A DNA stretch of 64,000 nt from [Mycobacterium] stephanolepidis. GTDB lineage: Bacteria > Actinomycetota > Actinomycetes > Mycobacteriales > Mycobacteriaceae. A model generated the notes under the pieces. That model saw nothing but the letters and a program-made list of their open reading frames with translations, was not told the DNA's origin and made no database searches. Every line of letters starts with the position of its first letter. The first letter of the stretch is position 1. Shown one piece after another: positions 4,261 to 24,892 of this stretch. A program made the translations under genes and the position numbers. The stretch is taken from assembly GCF_002356335.1 (NCBI RefSeq), contig NZ_AP018165.1, forward strand, positions 124,001-188,000. The letters run 5' to 3'.

Positions 4261-4333
4261 ACCGGTGTTGTAGCACCGTATGCCGACAAGTCGTCGTAAC
4301 CGAGCGGGTGGAGGAGCCTCTTTCCATATTAAT

Positions 4334-4404
4334 ATTGCATCGCAATCTGAATATCGATACTATTTAAACCAACTAGGGCCACGCACGTCACATTGCGATG
4401 CAAG
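4334..4404. promoter_or_regulatory. paired palindromic operators upstream of oxygenase operon
   Basis: Two copies of a dyad with core ATTGC-N3-GCAAT lie in an unusually AT-rich stretch. The first is ATTGCATCGCAAT at 4334-4346. The second is ATTGCGATGCAA at 4392-4403, and 12 bases of it are the exact inverse of 4335-4346. The second site ends 12 bases before the oxygenase ATG and overlaps its ribosome site region. Between them is AT-rich sequence suited to a promoter. Likely bound by the TetR encoded at 6209-6829 in the same transcription unit (inference). Confidence 0.6.
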
Positions 4405-4415
4405 GGAGTTGGACT

Positions 4416-5519
4416 ATGGGCAGCCTGCGAGACGACCCGAGATACGCGGGAACTGTAGAGGAACGCCGCAGGCGTGACCGGCGGTACGACTTCCTGTTGA
4501 AGCTGCACGGGAAAAACGGCAAGAAGGCGTTACAGATCGCCGAAGCGCCGCGCCGGGACGACGGCTACTTCGGGCTCGACTCGCTCAGCTTCAAGGTCTA
4601 CGAAAACGTCATGATCGCCGGGATGGGCGCGCTGTCAGGGTTGTTCATCTCCACCATCGACCCCGATGGCGCCTACGGCGTCGGCCAGCACACGACGTAC
4701 TACTACGACACGGTGGGCAGGATTCGCCGGAGTCTGTTGTTCTTCGCCGGGGCAGTCGCGGGAGACACCGACGCAGCGGTCAGGGTCGGGCGGGATCTTT
4801 TCCGTAAGCACTCGCACGTCAATGGCGACGTGCCGTCGACCGGCGAGGCGTATCGCGCGAATCATGTTGAAACGCTGAAGTTCACGTATGTGGTCGGATG
4901 GCCGCATCTGTGGCGTGCGTACAAGAGGTTTGGCGACCCGAATGCGACGTATGAGGACGAGTGCGTTTTCTACAAGGAGCAGGTGCGCGTGTGCGAGTTG
5001 ATGGGCATGCCGGCGGGCGAGCTTCCCGATACGCCGGAGGCCGTCGAGGCCTGGGTGAGGGATGCGGAGAAGAACATCATGGCGGTTACCCGGCCGGCCC
5101 AGGAACTGTATGACTTCATGCTGCACAATCCGTGGACGCCGTTGTACCCCAACGCGATTATGGGTGCGGGCATTAAACTCGCGATCTGGGCGGCGATCCC
5201 GTTGCTCACGCCGTATGTCCGGGAGATCTGCGATCTGGAGACCATGCGGATCCGGCCCGCCATCGGCACATTCGCGATCAAGGGTGCTGTGCGTGCACTG
5301 CGTAATCCGATTGTCGAAAAGCTGATTCTTCCCTGGTTCGGATACGAGATGTGGGGATACATGCACAACGCGATCCGGCATGCACCGGACACCGGGCCGG
5401 TGCCCTTCGATCATGAAGTGGGCCTGAAACTGCAGCAGGGCAAGGGTGGAACGCTCGAGGCCAGTGCATGCCCGATGCATGCTCTGGCAACGGCACCGTC
5501 GGCAGAGGCACTGGTATGA
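4416..5519 (+). CDS. oxygenase MpaB family (DUF2236) protein
   Basis: About 367 residues, assigned to the DUF2236/MpaB-like oxygenase family by the overall pattern. That pattern is an N-terminal basic segment, a helical core with paired His and Arg in HTTYYYDTVGRIRRS, and a conserved W-rich stretch VVGWPHLWRAYKRFG. The family includes latex-clearing protein-like haem oxygenases; the substrate here is unknown. The start at 4416 is preferred over 4398 because AAGGGAG (4402-4408) is a good ribosome site 7 bases before it. The stop overlaps the next gene (ATGA). First gene of a three-gene unit ending in a TetR regulator. Confidence 0.75.
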   Translation: MGSLRDDPRYAGTVEERRRRDRRYDFLLKLHGKNGKKALQIAEAPRRDDGYFGLDSLSFKVYENVMIAGMGALSGLFISTIDPDGAYGVGQHTTYYYDTVGRIRRSLLFFAGAVAGDTDAAVRVGRDLFRKHSHVNGDVPSTGEAYRANHVETLKFTYVVGWPHLWRAYKRFGDPNATYEDECVFYKEQVRVCELMGMPAGELPDTPEAVEAWVRDAEKNIMAVTRPAQELYDFMLHNPWTPLYPNAIMGAGIKLAIWAAIPLLTPYVREICDLETMRIRPAIGTFAIKGAVRALRNPIVEKLILPWFGYEMWGYMHNAIRHAPDTGPVPFDHEVGLKLQQGKGGTLEASACPMHALATAPSAEALV

Positions 5520-6208: not shown

Positions 6209-6829
6209 ATGCCGAGGGCGCTGACACGTGAGGAGCTCCAGGCGCAGACCCGCGAGCTCGTGCTCACCGCCGCCGAGACGGTCTTTCTACAACGGGGATT
6301 TCACGCGACGACGGTCGCGCAGATAGCGGCCGAGGCAGGACGCACCCAGGGGTCGATCTACAGCAACTTCGAAAGCAAAGACGCGTTATGTCAGCAACTC
6401 CTGCGCATTCATTACGAAGGATGGCTGGCACAGGTCGCGTTGGCGGTAATGACCTCCGAGGGGACGTCGGCCAAACTCGGAGTCGTCGAGGCGAAGTGGC
6501 GAGTTCTCAGTGGTGAGACCGATTGGATCGGCCTCACCACGGAGTATCTCCTGGCCGCCCGGCATAGTCCCGAACAATCAGAGCTCATCCGTCAGACGGT
6601 GTCGGGTCTGCAGGACGGGGTGAAAGCGGTACTTCTGGGACAGCTGCAGAGCGAAGGCGTCGATGTAGACGAGGGCGTCCTGCTCGACGACGCGGTGGCG
6701 GCGATCATCGCGACGGGCATGGGGTTGGTCGTCAACCACACCATGGGCCTGGTCGGTCTCGATCAGTCGACCAGCGTGTTCATGCAGACCCTGGAGACGT
6801 GGCGAGATCGACTGAGTTCTTCTCCCTAA
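6209..6829 (+). CDS. TetR-family transcriptional regulator
   Basis: A 206-residue TetR repressor. The helix-turn-helix is at about 30-60: TTVAQIAAEAGRTQGSIYSN followed by FESKDAL. The C-terminal ligand-binding domain is generic. The start at ATG 6209 is chosen because the DNA-binding domain begins shortly after it; a GTG at 6203 is equally possible. It follows the oxygenase and peroxiredoxin-like genes on the same strand and probably controls them through the operators at 4334-4404. Its last 50 bases overlap the 3' end of the convergent monooxygenase gene. Confidence 0.88.
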   Translation: MPRALTREELQAQTRELVLTAAETVFLQRGFHATTVAQIAAEAGRTQGSIYSNFESKDALCQQLLRIHYEGWLAQVALAVMTSEGTSAKLGVVEAKWRVLSGETDWIGLTTEYLLAARHSPEQSELIRQTVSGLQDGVKAVLLGQLQSEGVDVDEGVLLDDAVAAIIATGMGLVVNHTMGLVGLDQSTSVFMQTLETWRDRLSSSP

Positions 6830-8339
6830 CGCTGGTGAACTCGTAGTCGGTGAATGGGAAATATCGGTTCTGCAAGCGCATCTCGGTATTGGTGGATGGA
6901 CGGTACGCGGCGGCATCACCCTGATAGTTGATGTAGTAGGTGTTCGAGCCGGCGCACAGCGGTGTGGGTAGGTGACTCTTCGCGGCACGCGACAGCATCT
7001 GTTGCCAGTATTTGTCGTGTGGCTCCCGACGAACCTCACACCGTGTTGCTCCGCGCCGCCGGGACTCCGATATTGCCCGAACAGCATGTGCCACAGTTGA
7101 TTCCAGCAGCACTAGATATGATCCGGGTGAGTACGCCCACGGGCCGATCAGCATATAGGCGTTGGGCCAACCCGGAATGGTCACCCCCTGGTAGGCCTGA
7201 TAGCGATTCTCATCCCACCAGGTGTTCAGGTCGACGCCATCGCGTCCCAGGCAGGGGAACGGTGGTGTGGCACCCTTTTCCATGACCTTGAATCCGGTGG
7301 CACACACCAGGACATCGATCTTGTGCTCGACGCCATCGGTGGTGACGACGGAGTCCTCCGTGATGCGTTCGATGGGTTCGGTCACCAGATCGACATTGGG
7401 CTTGGTGAACGTCGAGAACCACTCGTTGTGCATCGACGGCCGTTTGCAGCCAAAGGCATAGGTCGGGGTGAGCTTCTTACGTAGTTCGGGTTGTCCGGGG
7501 AGCTGTGTCCACATCCATCCCCGCAGCGCCAGACCAACGCTCTGCAACACCGCCTTGTACATGCGTTCCCCCAACAGCTGCCCGCCCAGCAGCGCACCGC
7601 CGAGCCCGAGCTCGACGAGCACCATGCCGGCACCGCGCAGGGGCGCGCGCAGCAGGCGGTTACCGAAGATGAAGCGGGTGAGGGGGCCGGTCTTGAAGTC
7701 GAGCTTGGGTGCGACCCATATCGCGGTGCGCTGGAACACCGTCAAGTGACTGACCTGATCGGCGATCGCCGGTACCAACTGCAGCGCAGTGGCGCCGGTT
7801 CCGATCACCGCCACCCGCTTGCCGGTGAGGTCGTAGTCGTGGTCCCACGCCGTGGTGTGCTGGAGCTTGCCGGCGAAGGTATCGATGCCCGGGATGTTCG
7901 GGAGATTCGGCACTTCCAGGCCCCCGATCCCGACGATCACGTGCCGTGCCGTGATTTCGCCTCGGTCGGTCTGCACATGCCAGATGTCGGTGGCCTCGTC
8001 GAACCGGCTGCCGAGCACTGTGGTGCTCAGCAGCAGCTTGTCGCGCAGGCCATGTTGATCGACCACGTCCTCGGCGTACTGCTGCAGCTCGTCGCCCGGC
8101 GCGAACAGGCGGCTCCAGTTCCCGGTTTGGGCAAAGGAGTAGCTGTAGATGAAGGACGGAATATCCACCGCGACACCGGGGTACTTGTTGATGAACCAGG
8201 TTCCGCCCACGGACGGATGCTTGTCGACGATGACGAAGTCCTCGATGCCGGCCTTGCGTAGCTTGACGCCCGCGGCGATACCGCCGAATCCGGCGCCTAC
8301 GACGAGGACCTCGTGTTGGGGGAGGGCGGGTGTGCTCAC
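6780..8339 (-). CDS. flavin-containing (Baeyer-Villiger-type) monooxygenase A
   Basis: A 519-residue class B flavoprotein monooxygenase. It has an N-terminal FAD motif (VVGAGFGG, 14-21), a GGTWFINKYPG stretch, the Baeyer-Villiger fingerprint FAGKLQHTTAW (155-165, His161 present) and a second nucleotide motif VIGTGAT for NADPH. It would insert oxygen into a ketone to form an ester or lactone. The GTG start at 8339 overlaps the esterase stop (GTGA); the longer open frame upstream is antisense noise. Last gene of a five-gene coupled operon. Close in type to MymA (Rv3083), but the substrate is unknown. Confidence 0.88.
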   Translation of the reverse strand: MSTPALPQHEVLVVGAGFGGIAAGVKLRKAGIEDFVIVDKHPSVGGTWFINKYPGVAVDIPSFIYSYSFAQTGNWSRLFAPGDELQQYAEDVVDQHGLRDKLLLSTTVLGSRFDEATDIWHVQTDRGEITARHVIVGIGGLEVPNLPNIPGIDTFAGKLQHTTAWDHDYDLTGKRVAVIGTGATALQLVPAIADQVSHLTVFQRTAIWVAPKLDFKTGPLTRFIFGNRLLRAPLRGAGMVLVELGLGGALLGGQLLGERMYKAVLQSVGLALRGWMWTQLPGQPELRKKLTPTYAFGCKRPSMHNEWFSTFTKPNVDLVTEPIERITEDSVVTTDGVEHKIDVLVCATGFKVMEKGATPPFPCLGRDGVDLNTWWDENRYQAYQGVTIPGWPNAYMLIGPWAYSPGSYLVLLESTVAHAVRAISESRRRGATRCEVRREPHDKYWQQMLSRAAKSHLPTPLCAGSNTYYINYQGDAAAYRPSTNTEMRLQNRYFPFTDYEFTSVREKNSVDLATSPGSA

Positions 8340-9370
8340 GGTGTGCCTGTCTTGGAGATGGTCGGGTTGGTGATCTGGCTGATGAAGTACGCCATGTCGG
8401 CAACGGCCGCGCGAGCATCGGGCAGTAGATCCGCCGCTATCTGAAAATCGTGTATGGCGTGGTCCCAGATCTGGACCGTGCACGGCACGTTGGCCTCGGC
8501 GCAGCGGCCGGCCAATTGCTCGACATCGACCAGCAGTACCTCGAGTGATCCCACTTGAATGAAAACCTTTGGTAGGCCGGTGAAATCGTGGTTCACCGAT
8601 GACCAGGCAGGGTCCAACACCCCGCCGGGGGCCATACCCAGTTCGCCGGGAACCGAGAGGATGAGACCGGATAGCATCGCGTCGCGGGTCTCGTTCGGAT
8701 GAGCCTTCTTGGCCGAACAATCGAGGTCCGCCCAGGGAGAGATGGCGGCGATGCCACCGGGTACGGGTAATCCGAGATCTCGAGCGGCGAGCGCCGCGCT
8801 GAAGGCCAGTCCGCCTCCGGCCGAATCGCCCGCGAACACAATCTTGTCGGCGGTGTATCCCTGGTCGAGCAGATATCGGTAGGCGGTCACGGCATCGGCG
8901 ACGGACTCGGTGATGTGTGCCAACGGGAGCTGGCGATAGTCGACCGCGAGTAGTCGCGTTCCCGCCGTGCGCGCAAGGCGTGCCGTCATGCGTCGGTGAC
9001 TGTGGAGGCCGCCAAGAATGAAGGCACCGCCGTGGAAGTACAGCACCGCGCCCTCCACAGGATTCTCGGGGTCGGAAAGGTCCTTATGCCACAACCATTC
9101 CGCGCGGAAGCGGGGGAACGTCACAATGCGACGCGCGGTACCCCTCCTCGGGCGCAACGGGTAGGCGGCCATCTCGACGAAGTTGACGGCCCGGAATCCG
9201 CGCGTCCTCAGCGATGGAAATCGTATGGTGAGTTTGGCAAGAAGCTCCAGTGGTGCTCGCAGCAGAGCGCGCGCCACCGCGTGGGAAAACCTTTGTAGCG
9301 CGGAGCCACTCCCAGCCATCTCGACGCTGACGGTGCCGCCGGGTGCGGCAATGGGTACCGAGTCGTTCAT
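8336..9370 (-). CDS. alpha/beta hydrolase of the hormone-sensitive-lipase (Lip) family
   Basis: A 344-residue esterase of the HSL family. The oxyanion-hole motif is YFHGGAF, the nucleophile elbow is GDSAGGG, and the late His lies in DHAIHDFQ. It sits between two monooxygenase genes with 4-base overlaps at both ends. This matches mymA (Rv3083)-lipR (Rv3084) in M. tuberculosis, where an FMO and a Lip esterase are adjacent. The natural role inferred is hydrolysis of the ester made by the monooxygenases. Confidence 0.9.
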   Translation of the reverse strand: MNDSVPIAAPGGTVSVEMAGSGSALQRFSHAVARALLRAPLELLAKLTIRFPSLRTRGFRAVNFVEMAAYPLRPRRGTARRIVTFPRFRAEWLWHKDLSDPENPVEGAVLYFHGGAFILGGLHSHRRMTARLARTAGTRLLAVDYRQLPLAHITESVADAVTAYRYLLDQGYTADKIVFAGDSAGGGLAFSAALAARDLGLPVPGGIAAISPWADLDCSAKKAHPNETRDAMLSGLILSVPGELGMAPGGVLDPAWSSVNHDFTGLPKVFIQVGSLEVLLVDVEQLAGRCAEANVPCTVQIWDHAIHDFQIAADLLPDARAAVADMAYFISQITNPTISKTGTP

Positions 9371-10902
9371 GCGAGCACCTCCGCGGGCTGCTTCTCGTAG
9401 GCGTAGTCGTCGAGCGGGAACTTGCGTGTGCTGCGGCGTGCCTCGAAGAAGCCCGCTGGCCGCAGGTACGTGCTGTCGCCCTGTGAGTTCCGGTAGTAGG
9501 TCGGAATATGCCCGTTCAGTTCTGCAAGGTAGTACCGGATGGCTTCGGACCGTTGTCGCACCGTCCGATGGTAGGTGTCGGCGATCTCCCTGCGTACTTC
9601 ACAGCGAATCGCACCGCGCCGGTTGGTCTCGGTGATCGCACGTACGGCGTGATCCGATGTCATCTCCATGAAGGCATGCCAACCCGAGCCCGTCCACGAA
9701 TACGGTCCGCACAACGTCCATCGATTTGGAAGACCGTGCACCGCAACACTTTCGTAGGCCTGCAGTCCTTGCTCGGCATAGTATTTGGCCAAGTCGAATC
9801 CATTGCTGCCCACAATGGTTCCGGGAAGATAGGTCTCCGGATCGGAGAACACTTCGTATCCCGTGGCCAGCACCAGTACGTCGAATCGGTGTTCGGCGCC
9901 ATCGCGTGTCTGGACGCCGGCCGCGGTAATTCTCTCGATCGGCTCGGTGATCAGCGAGACGTTGTCACGGTTGTACGCCTGCAGATAGCCGTTGGATATG
10001 GTCGGGCGCTTGGCAAGCGGGCCGAAGTCGGGAGCTAGTTTCTCGGCCGTAGACGGATCTTTCACCACCCAACGGATGTAGCGCCGGTATGCGGCAATAG
10101 ATGCCGCATCGAACCTGTTCATCGCGGGCCGTGACCATCGGAACGGTGCTCTGCTCAGGGTGCGCAGTAGTAGGTCGGCCAGTACCAGGACGGCGCCATT
10201 GAGTGCTGGCTGCACGCCGGGCGCCGCGTATAGGGGGCGCAGGATGGGACCGATTTCAAGGTCCGGCTTGGGTAGCGACCACACGGGTGTGCGTTGAAAG
10301 ACGCTGAGATGCGATACCTGCGGCGCGATCGTCGGAATGATCTGCACCGCACTGGCTCCGGTGCCGATGATGCCGACACGTCTTCCCGCCATGTCGTACG
10401 AGTGGTCCCAGGCCGTAGGCCGTTGCACCTTGCCGTCGAATGAGTCCGCTCCGGCGATGCCGACATCGGCCTTGGGGCGGACGAAGGCGCCGACCGCGCT
10501 GATCACGAAGCGTGCGGTGATGACCGAACCGTCGCTGGTGAGCAGGTTCCAGAATCCGGCGTCGTCCCACTCTTCCCGTTCGACGTTGGTGTTGAAGCGG
10601 ACACGTTCGTGGACACCGAAGCGTTTGGCCACGTCGACGTGATACTGCTTGACCTCGTCGCCCTTGGGAAAAAGTCTGCTCCACTGAGAGTTTCGTGCGA
10701 AGGAGTACTGGTAGGCGAAGGACGGAACGTCCACCCCCAGGCCCGGATAGTGGTTCTCATGCCAGCTACCGCCAACGTCATCGGCCCGTTCCAGCAGCAC
10801 GATGTTGCCGATACCGGCCTGCAGTAGCTTGACTCCGGCTGCGATGCCGCCGGGGCCGGCACCGATGATCGCGACATCGAATTCCGGTGATGGTGCGCTC
10901 AT
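9367..10902 (-). CDS. flavin-containing (Baeyer-Villiger-type) monooxygenase B, atypical fingerprint
   Basis: A 511-residue monooxygenase paralogous to the one at 6780-8339. FAD motif IIGAGPGG (12-19), GGSWHENHYPG, and NADPH motif IIGTGAS are in place. The Baeyer-Villiger fingerprint reads FDGKVQRPTAW (155-165), so the usual His is Arg161 (codon at 10420-10422). The ATG at 10902 overlaps the upstream SDR stop (ATGA), and the stop overlaps the esterase start. The open frame continuing to 11028 is not protein-like. It may be a different FMO type or have altered activity. Confidence 0.86.
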   Translation of the reverse strand: MSAPSPEFDVAIIGAGPGGIAAGVKLLQAGIGNIVLLERADDVGGSWHENHYPGLGVDVPSFAYQYSFARNSQWSRLFPKGDEVKQYHVDVAKRFGVHERVRFNTNVEREEWDDAGFWNLLTSDGSVITARFVISAVGAFVRPKADVGIAGADSFDGKVQRPTAWDHSYDMAGRRVGIIGTGASAVQIIPTIAPQVSHLSVFQRTPVWSLPKPDLEIGPILRPLYAAPGVQPALNGAVLVLADLLLRTLSRAPFRWSRPAMNRFDAASIAAYRRYIRWVVKDPSTAEKLAPDFGPLAKRPTISNGYLQAYNRDNVSLITEPIERITAAGVQTRDGAEHRFDVLVLATGYEVFSDPETYLPGTIVGSNGFDLAKYYAEQGLQAYESVAVHGLPNRWTLCGPYSWTGSGWHAFMEMTSDHAVRAITETNRRGAIRCEVRREIADTYHRTVRQRSEAIRYYLAELNGHIPTYYRNSQGDSTYLRPAGFFEARRSTRKFPLDDYAYEKQPAEVLA

Positions 10903-11759
10903 TGTCCGACTCGATTCAGGAGGGGCTGCAGCCGAGACATCAGGCCGTCGGCCAGTTCGAATGAGCCGATACCGGTGACGACCCGGCTGAGGCTCGGTGA
11001 CAGGCGGTAGAGCCCGTAGATGAACCACGATTCGGGGTTCACCGGAACGACGGCCCAGTTGTGTCGTACCGATCGCTCAATGACGCGCGCCACTTTGTCC
11101 GGGCCTGCGTAGCTGATCGACTGGATCTTGCCGGCGCTGGCGTACCACTGTTCTTGATCGATCTCGCTGATGCCTGCGCGATGACCATTGGCGATCAGAT
11201 TCGTGTTGATAACACCCGGGCATATCGCGGTGACCCCGATGCGGTGGCGACGTAGTTCGACGCGTAGCGCCTGGGATGCCATGAGTACGGCTGCCTTGGC
11301 GGTTCCGTATGCGGCAATCATCTTGTGCGGCAGGAAGGCCGCACCCGAGGAGATGTTGACGATGTGGCCGGGTACCCCGGCATCGACCATCTGTTGGGCG
11401 AATACGCGTGAGCCGTAGATGACGCTCATCAAGTCGATGTCAATGGTGCGCTGCCACTCCTGCGCGGTCATCTCGACAAAGCCACCCCAGTCCATGATTC
11501 CGGCGTTGTTGACGAGTAGGTGTGGAGCGCCGAATTCGGCATCGACCCACTTACCGAAGGTCTCCCACTGTTCCTCGTCCGCGACATCCAGTTGATACGC
11601 GATCGCGGTGCCGCCTGCGGTGACGATCTCGCCTGCGGCGGACTCGGCGGCATCGATGTCGATATCAGCCAGGATTACCCGATTTCCCTGGGAGGCGAAG
11701 AGGCGTGCGGTTTCTCGGCCAATGCCCGATCCGGCCCCGGTCACGATTGCGGTCTTCAT
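10899..11759 (-). CDS. short-chain dehydrogenase/reductase
   Basis: A 286-residue classical SDR. The cofactor motif is VTGAGSGIG (6-14), the structural NNAG is present in LLVNNAGIMDWGG, and the catalytic Tyr-x3-Lys is YGTAK preceded by Ser in ISSGAAF. A C-terminal extension of about 40 residues is shared with the next SDR upstream. ATG 11759 overlaps the upstream SDR stop. Likely oxidises an alcohol to the ketone used by the monooxygenases (inference from context). Confidence 0.88.
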   Translation of the reverse strand: MKTAIVTGAGSGIGRETARLFASQGNRVILADIDIDAAESAAGEIVTAGGTAIAYQLDVADEEQWETFGKWVDAEFGAPHLLVNNAGIMDWGGFVEMTAQEWQRTIDIDLMSVIYGSRVFAQQMVDAGVPGHIVNISSGAAFLPHKMIAAYGTAKAAVLMASQALRVELRRHRIGVTAICPGVINTNLIANGHRAGISEIDQEQWYASAGKIQSISYAGPDKVARVIERSVRHNWAVVPVNPESWFIYGLYRLSPSLSRVVTGIGSFELADGLMSRLQPLLNRVGQ

Positions 11760-12628
11760 CGGCCTGCTCCGATCCCCAAGGTGGTCAGGGTGCGCGCGCC
11801 CAGATCCACGACACGTTCGGCCAGCGACATCCGCGCCAAGCCCATGAGCCCACGGGACAAGCCCGGGGAGAGTCGGTACAGGTACCAGCCGAACCAGGCT
11901 TCCAGTCCGACCGGTACCGTGGACAGATTCCACCGCATGCCCCGCTCGATCGCGGCGGCCACATGATCGGGGGAGCGTCCGAGGAAGTGCTGCCCCCGGC
12001 TCAGTTTGTCCGTCCACGTTGTACCCGTGGGGTTGTCCACACCACTGCGGGTGCCGTTCGCGGACAGGTTTGTGTCGATCAAGCCGGGACAGATCGCGCT
12101 GACACCGATTCCGCGCCGCCCGAATTCAGCGCGTAGTGCCTGTGTGCCAAACCAAGCTCCTTGCTTCGCAACGACATACGACGGCGCCAGGGAAGTCGGC
12201 ATGAACGCCCCAACCGAGCAGATGTTGGCGATGTGACCTCGTGCGCCGGCCTCGACCATGCGCTGCACAAACAATCGCGATCCGACCAGCGGGCTCATCA
12301 TGTTGATCGAGATCATCCGCCGCCAGTCCGCGCCGGTCTGCTCCAGGAAGCCACCGGCAATGAGGATTCCCGCGTTGTTCACGAGCAGGTCCGGCAGGCC
12401 ATGGTGCTCGCATACCCAATCGGTGAACAGCTCCCAATCCGCCAGATCGGCGACATCGAGGCGGCGGAAGACGGCGTTCCCACCATCGCGCACGATGCGG
12501 TCAACGGTCTCGGCGCCTGTCGTCTCGTTGATATCGGATACCACGACGGTCCAACCTTTACGGCCGAAACGCTCGGCGGTCGCGCGTCCGATGCCGCTGC
12601 CCGCCCCGGTTACGACGGCTACAGACAT
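11756..12628 (-). CDS. short-chain dehydrogenase/reductase
   Basis: A 290-residue classical SDR, first gene of the operon. It has VTGAGSGIG near the N-terminus, LLVNNAGI, and the YVVAK active-site motif. It is paralogous to the following gene, including the C-terminal extension. ATG 12628 has a strong ribosome site (GGGGAGG, 6 bases upstream), so it is preferred over the GTG at 12700, which would add 24 unconserved residues. The 31-base palindrome at 12701-12731 lies directly upstream. Confidence 0.88.
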   Translation of the reverse strand: MSVAVVTGAGSGIGRATAERFGRKGWTVVVSDINETTGAETVDRIVRDGGNAVFRRLDVADLADWELFTDWVCEHHGLPDLLVNNAGILIAGGFLEQTGADWRRMISINMMSPLVGSRLFVQRMVEAGARGHIANICSVGAFMPTSLAPSYVVAKQGAWFGTQALRAEFGRRGIGVSAICPGLIDTNLSANGTRSGVDNPTGTTWTDKLSRGQHFLGRSPDHVAAAIERGMRWNLSTVPVGLEAWFGWYLYRLSPGLSRGLMGLARMSLAERVVDLGARTLTTLGIGAGR

Positions 12629-12700
12629 GGCGGGCCTCCCCGGGACTGTCTGAACCAGAACGGCACTTTCACCATGTGTGGACCTCTCCTCGTCGAGCAC

Positions 12701-12731
12701 TTCATTCAGATAATATGATTATCTGAATGAA
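12701..12731. promoter_or_regulatory. perfect 14+14 palindrome, probable TetR operator
   Basis: Arm TTCATTCAGATAAT (12701-12714), spacer ATG, then the exact inverse arm ATTATCTGAATGAA (12718-12731). It lies between the TetR gene (12818-13450) and the first SDR ATG (12628), in an AT-rich patch that also suits a -10 region. Position and symmetry fit a homodimeric repressor that shuts off the operon. Confidence 0.8.
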
Positions 12732-12817
12732 GGCGCAATGCCTTCCGGCTGAGAGAACGGCGAGAATTCCATGACATCGGGTTGTTCGCGTATCAGATCG
12801 CGAACTGGCTCGATGAA

Positions 12818-13450
12818 TTAGCTGGAGGCGTTAGAAGAGAGCCGTAGGTCGGCAATCCACAGCTGCAGCGTGCGGGTCAGTAGTGCGACGTACTGCTGGT
12901 TGTCGATGGTGCCCAGTGTGCGCCCCAGCGCCAATCCCGTGGCGGTCGCGAGGATCGCGGTGAGCGCGGCGTCACGTTCGTCATCGGGCACGGTGTCGGG
13001 AAGAGCGTTCGAGAGCACCGCGCCCAGCAGACCGCGTCCCATGGCGATGTGGCCCTGCGAGACCGCCAGCTGCGTCTGATCCTTGTGAATGGCCAGTGCG
13101 TACTCGGCGGCCAGCGCTACCAGGCCCTCATCGCCGCTGAGCGCCGCGGACCACTGTGCGAGCTGAGCGACCTGATCCTCGACGGAGGAGGCGGACTGAA
13201 GGAGCTTGCCCGCGACCTCGGAGAAGGTCCTCATGTAGCAGCGCAGCAGCACCTCGGCGCAGAGGTTCTCCTTGCTGGAGAAGTTCGAATAGATCGCCCC
13301 GACGGTCCGGCCGGCGGCATCGGCGATCTTGGTGACGGTGGTGCCGCCCAGTCCGTTGGCGAGGAACAATTCCTCGGCCGCATCGAGGAGATCTTCGCGG
13401 GTACGTTGCTGAGACTCGGCGCGGCTGATCCGTTGTCGCTGCCCGGACAT
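12818..13450 (-). CDS. TetR-family regulator of the monooxygenase operon
   Basis: A 210-residue TetR protein. The helix-turn-helix lies at about 35-65 (TTVTKIADAAGRTVGAIYSN). ATG 13450 is chosen over 13495 because AAGGAGG stands 5 bases upstream. It is on the same strand as, and directly upstream of, the SDR-monooxygenase operon, with the 31-base palindrome in the 189-base gap between them. It resembles the TetR at 6209-6829 in the helix-turn-helix, suggesting common ancestry. Inferred to repress the operon until a ligand binds. Confidence 0.88.
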   Translation of the reverse strand: MSGQRQRISRAESQQRTREDLLDAAEELFLANGLGGTTVTKIADAAGRTVGAIYSNFSSKENLCAEVLLRCYMRTFSEVAGKLLQSASSVEDQVAQLAQWSAALSGDEGLVALAAEYALAIHKDQTQLAVSQGHIAMGRGLLGAVLSNALPDTVPDDERDAALTAILATATGLALGRTLGTIDNQQYVALLTRTLQLWIADLRLSSNASS

Positions 13451-13766
13451 CGCGACCTCCTTGAACCCTGCACCGTATTCGTCTAATCCATCCAACCCGG
13501 ATCAGCCGAGTTCATATTTTGCCATTATCCAGAATAGGGAGTCCAGTGTGCCGGACGGAGACGTCGGCCCGGCACTGCGCCTGAGGCCGAGCCCGGGTGT
13601 GCGCATGGAGCAGACGCTCAACATACAAATCCCGTTCCCGATTCGTTCACTTGCCGTAAATGAGGTCAACTTAAAAATCATGCATACCCAAAAGGGGTAC
13701 GGGGTATTGGCCCGGGCTTTCCGGGAACGGATCGTGTTGGACAAACTGAGAGGCACCGCCGCCACC
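13451..13766. other. intergenic region upstream of MspA-family gene
   Basis: 316 bases with no convincing gene. The frame of the downstream protein is open through it, but the encoded residues do not look like a signal peptide until 13767. A small dyad TACCC-N4-GGGGTA lies at 13685-13699. An AT-rich stretch around 13655-13685 could hold the promoter for the MspA-family pair. The TetR promoter lies at its left end. Confidence 0.4.
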
Positions 13767-14447
13767 ATGCTGAAAAGTCTTGTCGTCCTGACAATCGCGG
13801 GCGTGCTCGGCGCGACCGCACCGGTGGCCCTGGCTGATCCGCTGGGCGGTGAACCATTGCCGGATCGGGCTGCTGCTGATTCCGTAGCCGCCCCGGCTGC
13901 AGACAACGGTGCCGTGGCCTCGGCAGAGCCGGGCATCCTGCGCACGCGGGAGGGTTGGGTTCTGGCCATAGCGGCCAAGGACGAGGCCCAATTGCCCGTC
14001 GCGCCGTTGACTACGGCCCTGTCCTCTCGCGAGTACTTGGTCGGCGGAACGTTCCTTGGAGCCATCCAAGGGTCCGGCACCACGAAACTGACCGATGGAA
14101 TCCTTGAAGCTGGATACCAAATCGGTTGTGGCATAAGCGCTGCCGAGGTCGACTTGAGATTCGGTGGCGGCATCACACCGCAGATCAGTCCCGCGGGTGT
14201 GCCCAGTATCGGAGGTAACGTTTTCGGGCAGGTCCGCCCCACTCTCAAGCCGGGTACCGCCACCATCATTCCGGTCACCAAGATGGCGTTCGAGGGGGAC
14301 AGTGCGCGCGTCACCATTACGGCGTTCCGCATCAAGATCGACAGCTGTGTGGGCCAGTCCTTCATCCGCTCCTATGCGATCTTGACCAGCTCGACCGAGG
14401 ACACGCAGGACGTAGTCACCTACATGGGTGTGACCAAAGCCGTCTGA
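13767..14447 (+). CDS. MspA-family exported protein (porin-like), copy 1
   Basis: About 226 residues. The N-terminal signal peptide (MLKSLVVLTIAGVLG to about 26) ends in ALA-D. The body shows the MspA-family pattern: REYLVGGTFLGAI, then EAGYQIGCG, and a C-terminal TAFRIKIDSC followed by SYAIL. Two cysteines (GCG and DSC) could form a disulfide; classical MspA has none. Start codon is uncertain: ATG 13767 begins the signal peptide, while GTG 13735 and ATG 13680 are in frame upstream. Likely an outer-membrane channel or surface protein, function not shown. Followed by a paralogue. Confidence 0.72.
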   Translation: MLKSLVVLTIAGVLGATAPVALADPLGGEPLPDRAAADSVAAPAADNGAVASAEPGILRTREGWVLAIAAKDEAQLPVAPLTTALSSREYLVGGTFLGAIQGSGTTKLTDGILEAGYQIGCGISAAEVDLRFGGGITPQISPAGVPSIGGNVFGQVRPTLKPGTATIIPVTKMAFEGDSARVTITAFRIKIDSCVGQSFIRSYAILTSSTEDTQDVVTYMGVTKAV

Positions 14448-14502
14448 TCCTAAGCATCCAGATCTCAACTCGCTCAATCGCATCTAGCTCTGAGAGGCGT
14501 CG

Positions 14503-15207
14503 ATGACCATGTTTAAGACACTTGCCACCGTGACAGCCGCGTGCGTACTCGCAGGAGGGGCACCGTTGGCTTCGGCTGAGCCCGGCCCCTCCCCGCTTCC
14601 CTTGCCCGCCGGGATGGAGAACCCGCCGCGGCCCGCTGAAGGTGAGGCTGGCCCGCCGCTGGACAACGGTGTCGTCGCTTCCGAACCACCGGCGACCGTC
14701 ACAACCCCGGATGGCTGGGTGTTGGCACTCGCGGCAGAGGAAGAGACCCAGCTGCCGATTCCGCCGCTCACCACGGCGACCTCTTCCCGCGAATACTTGG
14801 CCGGAGGCACGTTCATTGCCACCGTGAAAGGTGGTGGCAGCACCAAACTCAAAGGCGGAACGGTCGAGGCGGGCTACCAGATTGGCTGCGGTATCGCCTT
14901 GAGTGGAGTTCGCCTGACGGGAAGCATCGGCCTGTCTTCGTCGATCGGCCAGTCCGGGCTCGGCAACATCAGCATGCCCCTCGTGGGAAACATCGAGGTG
15001 AGGCCCAAACCCGGTGAGGTCATCAATGTCTCTGTCACCAAGAAGAAGTTCAAGGGCACGCAATCGCGCATCACGCTCAAGGACGTTCACATCAAGATCG
15101 ACGGATGTATCGGGCAGTCGTTCTTGCGGTCCTATGCGGTGCTCACCAGCACGACCTCAGGAACCGAGGACATCATCGCCTACTACGGCGTCACCAAGAC
15201 GGTCTGA
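14503..15207 (+). CDS. MspA-family exported protein (porin-like), copy 2
   Basis: 234 residues, clearly paralogous to the preceding gene. Signal peptide MTMFKTLATVTAACVLAGG ends near ASA-E. A Pro-rich stretch (about 28-50) follows, then SREYLAGGTF, EAGYQIGCG and HIKIDGCIGQ with the same two cysteines. A good ribosome site (GAGAGG) precedes ATG 14503 by 5 bases. The 55-base gap to copy 1 and the shared architecture point to tandem duplication and likely co-transcription. Predicted location: cell envelope. Confidence 0.75.
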   Translation: MTMFKTLATVTAACVLAGGAPLASAEPGPSPLPLPAGMENPPRPAEGEAGPPLDNGVVASEPPATVTTPDGWVLALAAEEETQLPIPPLTTATSSREYLAGGTFIATVKGGGSTKLKGGTVEAGYQIGCGIALSGVRLTGSIGLSSSIGQSGLGNISMPLVGNIEVRPKPGEVINVSVTKKKFKGTQSRITLKDVHIKIDGCIGQSFLRSYAVLTSTTSGTEDIIAYYGVTKTV

Positions 15208-15221
15208 GCGAGACTGGGGTT

Positions 15222-15965
15222 CTATTCGAGCCCAAGGCTCTTGAGCGCGTGAGACATCCGCTGCGGGGTCGCCGGAGTGAGTGTTGCCCACAGCGCGCCG
15301 TCAGCGGATGTGCTCGGCGTGGCCATGATCCGGCCAAAGGCCGTGTCGTACACGGCGACTCCACCGGGTGCGCGATCGGTGACACCGTCCACGCGACGAA
15401 TCGCGGTGATCTCGGTCATCGCTCCGCGACGAGCCATTGCCTTGGCCACGGCTACCGCGTCGGCTTTGGTGGCACCGAGCGCGATGAGTCGCCGAGCCAT
15501 ATCGGCGGGTTCGGCGTTAAGGGCCAGCGCCAGCTGCTCGGCGGGTGCGTTGATCGACCCGAACTTCAGTGGCGTCGCGTCACCCAGGTACCGCCACAGT
15601 TCGGTGCCGAGCGACCCGGTCACCGAGCGCATGGCCACGCCCTCGCCGTCGTTGACCAGGAGCACGTATGCCTCGCCGTGCTCCACCAGGCACAGGCGCA
15701 GCATCTGCGATCCGGCCCAGCGGCGCACCGCAACCTGACCGGTGGCCTTGCTGGCGGAAGTCAGCATGTCGCGCAGAGTCGGGTGAAGGTCCTCGCCCTT
15801 GAGTAGGTTGCGTTCCTTCAGTCGGGCGCGGGCGCCCTCGAGGGCGTCCCGATGTTCGGCTTCGTCTTCGTGGCGCGGACCGGCGGCCAACACAACCGGC
15901 AATAGGTCATTACCGGTGATCTCGCGGGTCAGTTCCAGTTCGTCGAAGTCCAGGCGGACGGTCAC
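15222..15965 (-). CDS. EspG-family ESX secretion chaperone
   Basis: A 247-residue protein that fits the EspG family (PF14011) in length and in its mixed alpha/beta pattern. It starts with LDFDELELT and has the central RRWAGSQMLRLCL segment. EspG proteins are cytosolic chaperones that bind the tip of PE-PPE dimers and deliver them to a type VII secretion system. Its ATG overlaps the stop of the PPE-like gene, and a PE-like gene precedes that, giving the complete cargo-chaperone trio. No ESX membrane genes lie in the window. Family call is by pattern, not by search. Confidence 0.7.
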   Translation of the reverse strand: MTVRLDFDELELTREITGNDLLPVVLAAGPRHEDEAEHRDALEGARARLKERNLLKGEDLHPTLRDMLTSASKATGQVAVRRWAGSQMLRLCLVEHGEAYVLLVNDGEGVAMRSVTGSLGTELWRYLGDATPLKFGSINAPAEQLALALNAEPADMARRLIALGATKADAVAVAKAMARRGAMTEITAIRRVDGVTDRAPGGVAVYDTAFGRIMATPSTSADGALWATLTPATPQRMSHALKSLGLE

Positions 15966-17002
15966 AGCTCCGCGCTCGCACCGAGGACCGGCGGCGCCAC
16001 CGCACCCTTGGAGCCACCGCGCTCGAACAGCGCTGAGGCGTCAACGTTTTCGAAGTCGGCGACCTTGTCGCTGGCCGGCTTGGTGGTCAGGATGTCCGGC
16101 AATTCGACAGGCTTGCTCTCGTCGCCCATGAAGACGCCGGTGGCGCCGATGGCGGTGAGATCCTTGTCGTCCTCGTCCTCATCCTTCTTGGCACCGGCGT
16201 TGCCGACCTTGATGCCCTTGCCCGCACTCGCGGCCAGCGCACCACCGGCCATCATGCCGGCCATCGGCGCACCCATTCCGCCCATGCCCATCCCGGAGCC
16301 GCCGGCAGAGGCCGCATTGGCGGTCATCGAGATGGCCGCCGCGCGGGCGCTCTGCACACCGGGCACCGAGTCAGGGCTCAGCGGGCTCGGGCCCATCTCG
16401 GACATGCCGAAACCTGCAGCGCTGACGCCGGTGTTGCCGCTGTTGGCTTCCGACTTCTCTTCGGGGTACTTGATGATCTCGGGGGCCGGTGGGAACTCAA
16501 CGACCTTGGCCGCAGGCTCGCTGGCCGACTCGTAGGTCTCCATGGCCTTGGCCGCCTGCAGATCCAGACCCTGCTCCATGCCCTCGGTGGTGGCGTGCAG
16601 CCCGAAGAGCGCCCCGCCTGCCGACAGCGCCTCAGCCTTCGCCTTTTCAAGCTGAGCCAAGTCGTTGATGTGGGGCATGTCCAGAACCGCGGTGCCGTAC
16701 GACTCGGCGTACGTGTTGGCGGTGTCGCTGACCTCCTGGGTCAGTCCGGCCATCTTGTCCAGCCACTCGGTGAACGGGGTCAGCTTGGACAGCGCCTCCT
16801 CGGCGCGGGGTCCGCGATACCCCTCCATGAGCTTCTCGCCGACACCCAGGCTGTTCTCGTGTACCTCGGCGAACGCGGCACTGATCTCCTGCCAGGCCAG
16901 GGCACTGTCGACGACATGCGTCGGTCCGGCACCCGTGGTCAGGTCCAGGGCCAGCTTCTTGGCCTTGCGGGCCACCCAGTTGACGCCAGTGAATCCGGTC
17001 AT
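15962..17002 (-). CDS. PPE-domain-like protein
   Basis: 346 residues. The helical N-terminal part (about 1-175) matches the PPE layout: a helix with WQEISAAFAEVHE, a turn EGYRGPRAEEAL where most PPE proteins have WxG, then TEWLDKM and long helices ending METYESAS. The middle (about 225-275) is Gly/Ala/Met-rich, a disordered linker. The C-terminal part has acidic and Ser-rich segments. It lies 3 bases after the PE-like gene and overlaps the EspG start. Likely secreted as a heterodimer with the PE-like protein, by which ESX is unknown. Confidence 0.7.
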   Translation of the reverse strand: MTGFTGVNWVARKAKKLALDLTTGAGPTHVVDSALAWQEISAAFAEVHENSLGVGEKLMEGYRGPRAEEALSKLTPFTEWLDKMAGLTQEVSDTANTYAESYGTAVLDMPHINDLAQLEKAKAEALSAGGALFGLHATTEGMEQGLDLQAAKAMETYESASEPAAKVVEFPPAPEIIKYPEEKSEANSGNTGVSAAGFGMSEMGPSPLSPDSVPGVQSARAAAISMTANAASAGGSGMGMGGMGAPMAGMMAGGALAASAGKGIKVGNAGAKKDEDEDDKDLTAIGATGVFMGDESKPVELPDILTTKPASDKVADFENVDASALFERGGSKGAVAPPVLGASAEL

Positions 17003-22814: not shown

Positions 22815-23273
22815 ATGACCGAAGGCGTGACCTCGGATACCTACCGGGAGCTTTCTGAGAACGGTGTGCAGAAGCACAACAGCCGGATGATCAGGCTGCT
22901 CCGCGAGAACGGCGGCAAGCTGCCCGGAGTGCCCGATGACGAGATGCCGGTGCTCATCCTGACGATCCTCGGCGCGAAAACGGGAATCGAACGGTTGACA
23001 CCGCTGGGCTACTTCGAGCATGAGGGTCGCAGGTTCATTGTGGGATCCAACGGCGGACAGCAGAAGCCGCCATCGTGGATCTTCAACGTGCGCACCCATC
23101 CCACCGTGACCGTCGAGGTAGTTCCGAACATCTACGACGCCGTTGTGCGCGAGCTGGACTCGAGTGAACGCGAACAACTCTTCCCGGTGCTGGTGGCCAG
23201 ATACGCATTCTTCGGTGACTACCAGGCGCGCATCGAGCGCGTGATCCCGATGTTCGAGTTGATGCCGCTCTAG
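22815..23273 (+). CDS. deazaflavin(F420)-dependent nitroreductase-family protein
   Basis: A 152-residue split beta-barrel protein of the Ddn/FDOR-A type. Typical parts are ILGAKTGIERLTPLGYFEHEGRRF broken by a conserved Gly, then VGSNGGQQKPPSWIFNVRTHP, the F420-contact region. Family members use F420H2 to reduce quinones and nitro compounds. The start ATG 22815 follows TAGCGT (22803-22808) by 6 bases, so it is probably leaderless. It overlaps the convergent MBL-Rieske gene by 4 bases. Confidence 0.9.
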   Translation: MTEGVTSDTYRELSENGVQKHNSRMIRLLRENGGKLPGVPDDEMPVLILTILGAKTGIERLTPLGYFEHEGRRFIVGSNGGQQKPPSWIFNVRTHPTVTVEVVPNIYDAVVRELDSSEREQLFPVLVARYAFFGDYQARIERVIPMFELMPL

Positions 23274-24823
23274 CCGAGCTTTCTGGAGCGCAGCTCGTGC
23301 CCCTTGGAGGTCATGCAGCGGCCGGTCTCCAGGTTCCAGTCCCATCCGTGCAGGTTGCAGGTGAGCGTCTTTCCTTCCACCACACCGAACTTCGAGAGAT
23401 CGGCCTTGAGGTGCGGGCAGCGCCGCTGGATCTCCCAGCCGTCCAGTGTTATCGAGGCGCTGTCGTCATGGGCCTCGGCGAACCAGCCGTCGGCGTACGC
23501 AATGCGCTCGTTGGTGAGGCATTTGAAGAAGGTGTACAGGTACTCGTTGTAACCGCCCACGCGCCAGGCCTTGAAACGGGTGGACAAGAAGATGGTGTTC
23601 ACCCAGTCGGGCTCATCATCGCGCAGCACGGTGCGGACCAGCTCCGGTGCGATCCCGAACCCGTAGCGGAACTTCTCATTGGGAATGGGTTCACGGACAA
23701 TGCGTTTCGGAAAGTCGAGCGCCACAATCTCGTCTCCCATGCGCAGCTCCACCGGATAGCCGATGCCATCGCAGATCTGATCGGTTTGCGCCATGATCGG
23801 CTCGAACTTGGCACGTAGCGGCCCGAGTAGCGGTTCGCCCTCGGCGGGTGCCCAGGCAGCCTTCTCGGCGGCCAGCACGGGAGCCATCCGCTGCGCGTAC
23901 TCCTCGATGTAGGCGGCCTTGCCGGCGCCGAAGATGTGTTCGGCCTCCTCGTCGGACACCGGATGCGTCAAAGAATTTAATTCGGAGCCGGTGAAATCCG
24001 CAACGGTGCCGGGAATCATCAGTAGGCCCTTGTCGTGGCCGTGCTGGCGCATCTGGTCCAGGAACACCAGCTGGTCCGGGAAGATGTTCGCCGGGTAGCC
24101 GTGGTCGTCGTTGAGGTCACGCAGTTCGGCGTCCAGGAAACACGGTGGCCCAGCGGACGGGATGACCCAGGTGGCGCCCACCTGCGCGATGTACTGACGG
24201 CAGCGGTCCATTCCGCGCTGCCGCTTCTGAGTGCCGAAGGCTTCTTTGGCGCGGGTGGGCATGTCGTAGACCATCGGGTACCAGATGGCCCCGGAGTACT
24301 GCAGCATGTGCACGTCGATGTGCCCGAACTCTTCGGCCAACACGTCAAGATCGACCGGTCGGGCGTCGTTCATATTGAAAGCCGTTGTGGTGCCGTCGAA
24401 TACCACGAGTCCGGAGTCGCCGATGGGTCCGTCGGCCGGAGCGCGCAACGCGATGATCATGACATCCAGGTCGCCCTTGGGCCCGCTCACTCGGTGCTTC
24501 ACCGAGTCCTCGGTCTCCACGAACGTGTGGAACCCCAACCCCTCAAGCTCACGCTTCAGATCGGGCACCGGATAGTCGGGCAGCAGCACCACCGCGTCCT
24601 TGTTGACGTGCTCGGTCAGGTTCTTCGGGTCGTAGTGGTCCTTGTGCAGATGCGAGACATACAGGTAGTCGCAGTCCCCGAGCCGGTCCCAATCCAGGGT
24701 GCTGTTGTCGGGATAGGGAAACCAGGAGGCGAAGTACGCAGGGTTGACCCAGGGGTCGCAGAGGATGCTGCCTGCCGCCGTTTCGATGAAGAATCCGGCG
24801 TGGCCGACACTGGTGACTCGCAT
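23270..24823 (-). CDS. metallo-beta-lactamase-fold / Rieske [2Fe-2S] fusion protein
   Basis: 517 residues. The N-terminal two-thirds is an MBL-fold hydrolase of the UlaG/CMAH-like type, with VGHAGFFIET and the metal motif HLHKDHYD. The C-terminal about 75 residues are a Rieske domain with CPH, 17 residues, then CNLH (CxH-x17-CxxH). The same two modules occur in the opposite order in vertebrate CMP-sialic acid hydroxylase. Start at 24823: TAGGCT (minus strand) lies 7 bases before it, giving a leaderless mRNA. Divergent from the MarR gene. Substrate unknown; a redox-linked hydrolase or monooxygenase is possible. Confidence 0.82.
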   Translation of the reverse strand: MRVTSVGHAGFFIETAAGSILCDPWVNPAYFASWFPYPDNSTLDWDRLGDCDYLYVSHLHKDHYDPKNLTEHVNKDAVVLLPDYPVPDLKRELEGLGFHTFVETEDSVKHRVSGPKGDLDVMIIALRAPADGPIGDSGLVVFDGTTTAFNMNDARPVDLDVLAEEFGHIDVHMLQYSGAIWYPMVYDMPTRAKEAFGTQKRQRGMDRCRQYIAQVGATWVIPSAGPPCFLDAELRDLNDDHGYPANIFPDQLVFLDQMRQHGHDKGLLMIPGTVADFTGSELNSLTHPVSDEEAEHIFGAGKAAYIEEYAQRMAPVLAAEKAAWAPAEGEPLLGPLRAKFEPIMAQTDQICDGIGYPVELRMGDEIVALDFPKRIVREPIPNEKFRYGFGIAPELVRTVLRDDEPDWVNTIFLSTRFKAWRVGGYNEYLYTFFKCLTNERIAYADGWFAEAHDDSASITLDGWEIQRRCPHLKADLSKFGVVEGKTLTCNLHGWDWNLETGRCMTSKGHELRSRKLG

Positions 24824-24892
24824 GAGCCCCAGCCTATCGAGCTGCATATTCTGCGCAAAAAGGTGCAGAAGTCGCACGAAAATGCACCGAAA

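Follow-up and report, generated by a model that had tools for sequence, protein, structure and literature searches.

The mymA operon of Mycobacterium tuberculosis contains, next to a Baeyer-Villiger monooxygenase (BVMO) gene, genes for an esterase, a short-chain dehydrogenase/reductase (SDR), AdhD and a WS/DGAT protein. Bacterial haem oxygenases that cleave C=C bonds are reportedly the subject of work by Purwani in 2024. According to PMC2793005, mymA is a seven-gene operon (Rv3083-Rv3089) that ends in fadD13, and PMC13234193 places it under the control of VirS. The BVMOs of M. tuberculosis are reported with a His motif, and the fingerprint FxGxxxHxxxW[P/D] is regarded as the limiting motif and super-hallmark of the type I BVMO family (both from PMC9044951). 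Proteins of the MpaB family have been described as oxygenases with a b-type haem that cleave C=C bonds (PMC12724181), and a Pseudomonas trans-anethole oxygenase is called a flavoprotein in PMC3774712. The DNA analysed here is a 64,000-nucleotide stretch of [Mycobacterium] stephanolepidis (the window; contig NZ_AP018165.1, positions 124,001 to 188,000), which carries a five-gene oxidation operon and, convergent with it, a second unit headed by a predicted MpaB/Lcp-family oxygenase.

The five genes, SDR1-SDR2-BV1-Lip-BV2, lie on the minus strand, and the convergent unit is MPAB-AHPC-TetA. The cautiously preferred reading is that both operons form one TetR-controlled system that would degrade a hydrophobic unsaturated compound. 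The convergent operon probably belongs to the five-gene system because the two units have similar operator-like sites, a skewed co-occurrence, an adjacent arrangement in genome G953 and a MPAB fold match. The two units likely share one regulon. The initial annotation, which described the five genes as mymA-like, passed over the second unit (MPAB, AHPC and its TetR), the operator-like sites and the Arg in the fingerprint of BV1. The features are the following:

4342-4363, no strand: predicted operator upstream of MPAB (GCAATCTGAATATCGATACTAT), top site of the window with a 22-bp palindromic matrix (21.1 bits)
4398-5519, plus strand: MPAB, MpaB/Lcp-family oxygenase (predicted haem enzyme, predicted C=C cleavage), PF09995
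5516-6073, plus strand: AHPC, AhpC/TSA-type peroxiredoxin-like protein, PF13911, E 3e-18
6209-6829, plus strand: TetA, TetR-family regulator, PF00440, E 1e-14, with its 3' end overlapping BV2 by 50 bp
6780-8339, minus strand: BV2, flavoprotein with the canonical type I BVMO motif (FAGKLQHTTAWD), PF13738/PF00743
8336-9370, minus strand: Lip, HSL-type alpha/beta hydrolase of 344 aa, PF07859 (Abhydrolase_3), E 7e-41
9367-10902, minus strand: BV1, Baeyer-Villiger-type flavoprotein with Arg for the fingerprint His (FDGKVQRPTAWD), PF13738/PF00743
10899-11759, minus strand: SDR2, short-chain dehydrogenase/reductase of 286 aa, PF00106, E 1e-50, motif YGTAK
11756-12628, minus strand: SDR1, short-chain dehydrogenase/reductase of 290 aa, PF00106, E 2e-45, motifs YVVAK and TGAGSGIG
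12700-12732, no strand: predicted TetR operator between TetB and SDR1, a perfect 33-bp palindrome with 15-bp arms and a 3-nt centre (CTTCATTCAGATAATATGATTATCTGAATGAAG)
12818-13495, minus strand: TetB, TetR-family regulator upstream of SDR1, PF00440, E 4e-13

The assignment of MPAB is based on family and fold. MPAB scores 124.5 bits for PF09995 (cut-off 23) and its sequence finds no match in the PDB up to E 1, whereas the predicted fold matches, and is shared with, the latex clearing protein (Lcp) and the t-anethole oxygenase (8s1j). Structure 8s1j is presumably that of a haem enzyme. The invariant residues His138 and Arg108 of MPAB are candidates for a haem or catalytic role. The start of AHPC overlaps the end of MPAB by ATGA, and AHPC adjoins MPAB in the annotated MPAB loci of relatives. 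The TetA start at 6209, an ATG, was chosen because the open reading frame (ORF) of G214 begins there; a longer frame from 6089 is also open. The 3' ends of TetA and BV2 overlap by 50 bp (6780-6829), and the same 50-bp overlap is found in G001 and G214.

A single TetR gene had been annotated. The presence of this family is confirmed but the number is not, as there are two related regulators (35% identity), TetA in the convergent unit and TetB upstream on the same strand as the operon. TetB occupies the same place in G001, G214, G193 and both Antrihabitans genomes. The TetR_N domain and the palindrome at the promoter are both present, and 12700-12732 is a predicted operator; it is conserved in G001 and G214, has shorter arms in G193 and is the single such site of each of these three genomes at up to 3 mismatches. 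As a terminator of TetB the palindrome was rejected, since the scan shows no terminator-like site there, and no sigma-70-like promoter was found in the scan of 12500-13600.

The two promoters carry operator-like sites of a similar kind. With a matrix of width 22 trained on 11 SDR1/TetB upstreams of other species, without Mycobacteroides, 4342-4363 ranks first in the 64-kb window and 4317-4338 second (14.1 bits). Both sites lie upstream of MPAB, the SDR1 palindrome ranks 4th and 5th, and the best site outside the two promoters reaches 11.4 bits. A palindromic matrix derived from 13 SDR1/TetB upstreams gives higher scores to 7 MPAB upstreams, chosen from 11, than to 161 control upstreams (Mann-Whitney 2e-5, 3e-5 and 6e-6 at widths 18, 20 and 22). 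The four set aside (L031, L162, L185, L186) are redundant or operon-internal, and among the highest-scoring controls are regions that also serve a divergent TetB or MPAB gene (L106_3228, L182_7173). When each upstream is compared with shuffles of its own sequence, 9 of the 11 MPAB upstreams have p <= 0.022 at width 22. The SDR1 and MPAB upstreams of the window have no exact 10-mer in common; they share one 9-mer and four 8-mers, including ATCTGAAT.

The gene set is conserved beyond the genus, variable in order and rare. The closest named matches are from Mycobacteroides chelonae (BV1 97%, MPAB 93%) and place the host in Mycobacteroides, near that species; the BV1 of M. abscessus subsp. bolletii is 84% identical. 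BV1 has matches at E <= 1e-148 in 25 of 396 genus genomes, 9 of them with at least 68% identity, and wider draws of 397 order and 301 family genomes, which overlap the genus set, added further genera. The annotated set comprises 23 loci from 17 genomes, with BV1 at 62% identity or more and 17-20 kb fetched for each. Loci with BV1 below 62% stand outside this count (e.g. G014, G096, G343, G097, G141, G404, G239, G386 and G208), and outside the wide-flank set are also G452, G521 and G618 (46-52%) and G075, G151, G178, G218, G255, G322 and G359 (45-50%). The two G131 loci are not independent because they are apparently copies of one region.

Among the 23 loci, a BV2-type gene is present in 20, SDR1 in 15, SDR2 in 16, Lip in 15, MPAB in 3 and all five operon genes in 11; in some, a gene of the set is on the opposite strand or several kb away. 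The order TetB-SDR1-SDR2-BV1-Lip-BV2 occurs in G001, G214, G193 and Antrihabitans stalagmiti, the last at identities of 50-72%. The SDRs are lacking in Antrihabitans stalactiti (TetB-BV1-Lip-BV2). G247 and G230 have SDR1-SDR2-BV2-BV1-Lip, an order that is also found in G357, where the BV2 frame ends early. At 402 aa, this G357 frame (L084 9735-10943) is shorter than its counterparts in relatives, and 304 bp separate it from BV1; the copy may be broken, or the sequence may contain an error. Several further shuffled BVMO/SDR/Lip clusters (L032, L033, L034, L045, L046) and 29 FMO-like matches are present in G001. The rarity of the five genes together in relatives, which would have refuted the initial annotation, is thus half borne out: the exact order of the window is rare, with 3 of 396 genus genomes and one Antrihabitans, but all five genes are found in 11 of the 23 BV1 loci.

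The co-occurrence of MPAB and BV1 is skewed. MPAB orthologs (E <= 1e-110) are present in 7 of 396 genus genomes, namely in 5 of the 9 genomes whose BV1 reaches at least 68% and in 2 of the 387 others (Fisher 3e-8). In G953, from another genus, BV1, MPAB and AHPC are consecutive on one strand and SDR1-SDR2-BV2 is divergent beside them. A TetR of the TetA/TetB kind adjoins MPAB-AHPC in all five wide loci in which MPAB-AHPC is unlinked, and also in L190; none was seen beside MPAB in the 4-kb stretch of L191.

Several observations weigh against joining the units. At width 18, the motif without Mycobacteroides performs worse, with the MPAB sites at ranks 5 and 6 in the window and the SDR1 palindrome at ranks 7 and 9. 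The MPAB upstreams of L191 and L162 are unremarkable (against shuffles, p is 0.024 for L191 and 0.20 for L162 at width 22, and 0.54 and 0.61, respectively, at width 18), MPAB of L162 being inside the operon, and the training loci L100 and L160 score low. The training was not wholly free of MPAB promoters, because the SDR1 upstream of L162 also precedes the divergent MPAB operon (G953). The cut-offs of the Fisher test were set after seeing the data, and the test ignores kinship while the carriers form few clades; with all 25 BV1-matching genomes the contrast becomes 5/25 vs 2/371. Of the 9 genus genomes that bear BV1, 4 lack MPAB at 60% or more (G113 carries a relative at 39%), as do 9 of the 17 BV1-bearing genomes searched, and G228 and G334 carry MPAB with no BV1 match at E <= 1e-148. 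The haem, the substrate and the co-transcription are themselves predictions.

The finding that MPAB is near BV1 in only 3 of the 23 loci, and absent from the other 20 within the fetched 17-20 kb, is also what would be expected if the five genes formed an independent unit that breaks down secondary alcohols or ketones (in sub-terminal alkane, cyclic ketone or steroid catabolism) and MPAB-AHPC-TetA were a mere neighbour. Sets of alcohol dehydrogenase, BVMO and esterase follow a known catabolic logic, a Rhodococcus BVMO acts in a sub-terminal alkane pathway (PMC12724338), and G193 has the same five genes with no MPAB match. Such a unit is nevertheless unlikely, although it survives better than the other alternatives, in view of the similar operator-like sites, the skewed co-occurrence and the G953 arrangement.

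The five genes themselves agree with most of what had been annotated. Their coupling by four 4-base overlaps, from 12628 to 6780, is borne out (ATGA at 11756-11759, 10899-10902 and 9367-9370; GTGA at 8336-8339), and a single operon is probable. Pfam recovers the two monooxygenases, the two SDRs and the TetR family, the five genes giving adh_short twice, FAD/NADP flavoprotein families (Pyr_redox_3, FMO-like) twice and Abhydrolase_3. SDR1 and SDR2 are 47% identical in pairwise alignment, and Lip has both HGGA and GDSAG, as expected for HSL-type esterases (HGG and GDSAG in Abhydrolase_3). The proposed logic of alcohol to ketone to ester to cleavage fits these families and their motifs. On the other hand, the upstream end given at 12731 falls inside the 33-bp palindrome. 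An alternative GTG start of SDR1 at 12700 abuts the palindrome, and the ATG at 12628 is more probable, as it lets SDR1 align with SDR2 from the first residue on.

The overlaps are kept 4/4 in the close relatives G001, G214 and G193 and 2/4 in Antrihabitans stalagmiti. As a special feature they are not upheld, since 8 of 33 other same-strand neighbour pairs, in a gene list picked by hand from the ORFs of the window, also have a 4-nt overlap. Four overlaps running have a chance of 0.24^4 = 0.003 at the window's own rate, which gives weak support because overlaps clump in operons.

The two flavoproteins are 42% identical in pairwise alignment and belong to separate clades. BV2 contains both the GGxW-YPG-D motif and FxGxxxHxxxW[P/D]; BV1 departs from the latter, with Arg at the His position. 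Among the best 120 of 3536 BV1 homologs at E <= 1e-60, this position is Arg in 117 and His, Gln and Lys in one each, and all 120 retain the Trp of the fingerprint as well as Arg and Asp of the active site, whereas the 120 BV2 homologs listed of 6921 all have His. In a FastTree phylogeny of 400 sequences, the BV1 clade holds 201 (support 0.999), with Arg in 167 and Gln, Ile, His, Thr, Val or others in the remainder, and the BV2 clade holds 173, all with His (support 0.874); these shares are not those of BVMOs at large, because the sequences were selected for their similarity to BV1 and BV2. BV1 keeps the long motif, the two GxGxxG/A motifs and the active-site Arg and Asp. Its AlphaFold model (predicted local distance difference test score, pLDDT, 83) matches cyclohexanone (CHMO), steroid (STMO) and phenylacetone (PAMO) monooxygenases, and it has the BVMO fold (Foldseek E 2e-41 against CHMO). 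Its clade, the kept active-site residues and the fold match of the model make BV1 look like a functional BVMO-type enzyme, from a lineage that would escape surveys based on the motif. Arg takes the fingerprint position in further Mycobacterium BVMO paralogs as well, and related groups show Gln, Ile, Thr or Val there; paralog loci with BVMO matches of about 43-50% to BV1 are L003-L009, L037, L066-L069, L071 and L072. The literature searched, with few subscription papers within reach, contained no report of the Arg fingerprint or of this operon, and no paper joining Mycobacteroides, Baeyer-Villiger and TetR was found in it.

In the two-operon system, TetA and/or TetB would repress both promoters through operators of one kind until the substrate or a product binds. 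MPAB, as a haem oxygenase, would then use O2 to split a C=C bond, yielding a ketone and/or an aldehyde, and SDR1 and SDR2 would interconvert alcohols and ketones. BV1 and BV2, perhaps with a division of labour, would insert oxygen next to the carbonyl to give esters, which Lip would hydrolyse to an acid and an alcohol. The released alcohol could be re-oxidised by an SDR for a second round, and the AhpC-like protein may remove peroxide leaked by the oxygenases. Each chemical step is assigned from the enzyme family, and the chemistry, direction and order of the steps are held only tentatively. The nature of the substrate is hinted at by the Antrihabitans copies:

L104 10564-16352 and L106 11332-16480: genes for mce-type lipid import, following the operon in both Antrihabitans species

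In Antrihabitans stalagmiti these are MlaE and MlaD-type (mce) genes; in Antrihabitans stalactiti the mce genes are separated from the operon by a gene for an SRPBCC protein and by a further BVMO. Their proximity suggests a lipid-like, hydrophobic substrate. A more specific version, speculative and rather doubtful, is a dedicated enzymatic ozonolysis-plus-Baeyer-Villiger pathway. A haem oxygenase would cut an isoprenoid- or steroid-like lipid at a C=C bond, and the two BVMO lineages would take turns at the carbonyls; the Arg-type BVMO would differ in its substrate range or chemistry and would have been overlooked by His-based mining in Mycobacteriaceae.

The same genes could instead be a tailoring set for a secondary metabolite or a unit for xenobiotic detoxification, and not serve growth on a substrate. 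Methyltransferase or SRPBCC neighbours in some relatives are consistent with this, as is the nearest NCBIfam model of both BV1 and BV2, (neo)pentalenolactone D synthase, which is far under its cut-off; no core biosynthetic enzyme is found among the neighbours scanned (the operon and 14 flanking ORFs), and this alternative is improbable. Least probable of all is a mymA-type operon that remodels cell-envelope lipids, since the BVMO, HSL-type esterase and SDR present here come with no AraC, AMP-binding (FadD) or WS/DGAT family in the scanned ORFs, mymA ends in fadD13 under VirS control, and BV1 lacks the His motif reported for the M. tuberculosis BVMOs (PMC9044951).

The Pfam scan thus agrees with the absence of fadD already annotated, and the view of a system separate from mymA holds; the term mymA-like does not, as the common part is three broad enzyme families. 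FadD13 orthologs give 4 matches in 148 genus genomes, and the three FadD13-bearing loci annotated (L187-L189, L188 ending at a contig edge; the fourth, L181, was left out) contain no BVMO match. VirS-like AraC genes near BVMOs were looked for in 20 genomes. The AraC-flanked BVMO in L151 lies near an S-adenosylmethionine synthetase gene, a setting which we take to be the Rv1393c neighbourhood.

The surroundings of the operon include two tandem MspA porin genes just upstream of TetB (window 13461-15207), a PPE-family gene (15962-17002) and a Rv3818-like gene with lactamase-fold, SCP2-like and Rieske domains (23270-24877). In other relatives a predicted metal-dependent hydrolase, an SRPBCC protein, an MMPL transporter, a methyltransferase or a patatin is found near the operon.

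The proposed two-operon system connects a mycobacterial MpaB-family oxygenase with a concrete, testable set of partners, with two regulators and with short operator-like sites, and it points to a way in which BVMOs could process cleaved alkenes further. If the Arg-type enzymes are active BVMOs, motif-based BVMO counts are too low.

Compared with the known systems, the locus resembles mymA in that its operon combines a BVMO gene with an HSL-type esterase and an SDR. Unlike mymA, it has two BVMO-type genes, two SDRs, TetR genes, a palindromic operator-like site and a linked MpaB-type oxygenase. The mymA regulator VirS is of the AraC type, whereas both neighbouring regulators here are TetR_N proteins; the mymA label fits poorly because of this TetR control and the lack of FadD in the scanned ORFs. 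With the sub-terminal alkane or ketone BVMO pathways (e.g. BVMO_4041 of Rhodococcus erythropolis XP) the locus shares the alcohol to ketone to ester logic, but it differs from them in two BVMO-type enzymes of separate clades, one with an Arg fingerprint, and in the linked MpaB-type oxygenase and similar TetR operator-like sites. MPAB resembles the MpaB/Lcp oxygenases (Lcp of Streptomyces K30, the t-anethole oxygenase 8s1j and Nro1 of Gordonia) in PF09995 and in predicted fold; it is only 12-16% identical to the solved members and, in contrast to them, is placed in a two-promoter system with BVMOs. BV1, finally, is like the type I BVMOs (CHMO, PAMO and steroid monooxygenase) in its fold, two Rossmann motifs, long motif and active-site Arg and Asp, and differs from them in having Arg for the fingerprint His.

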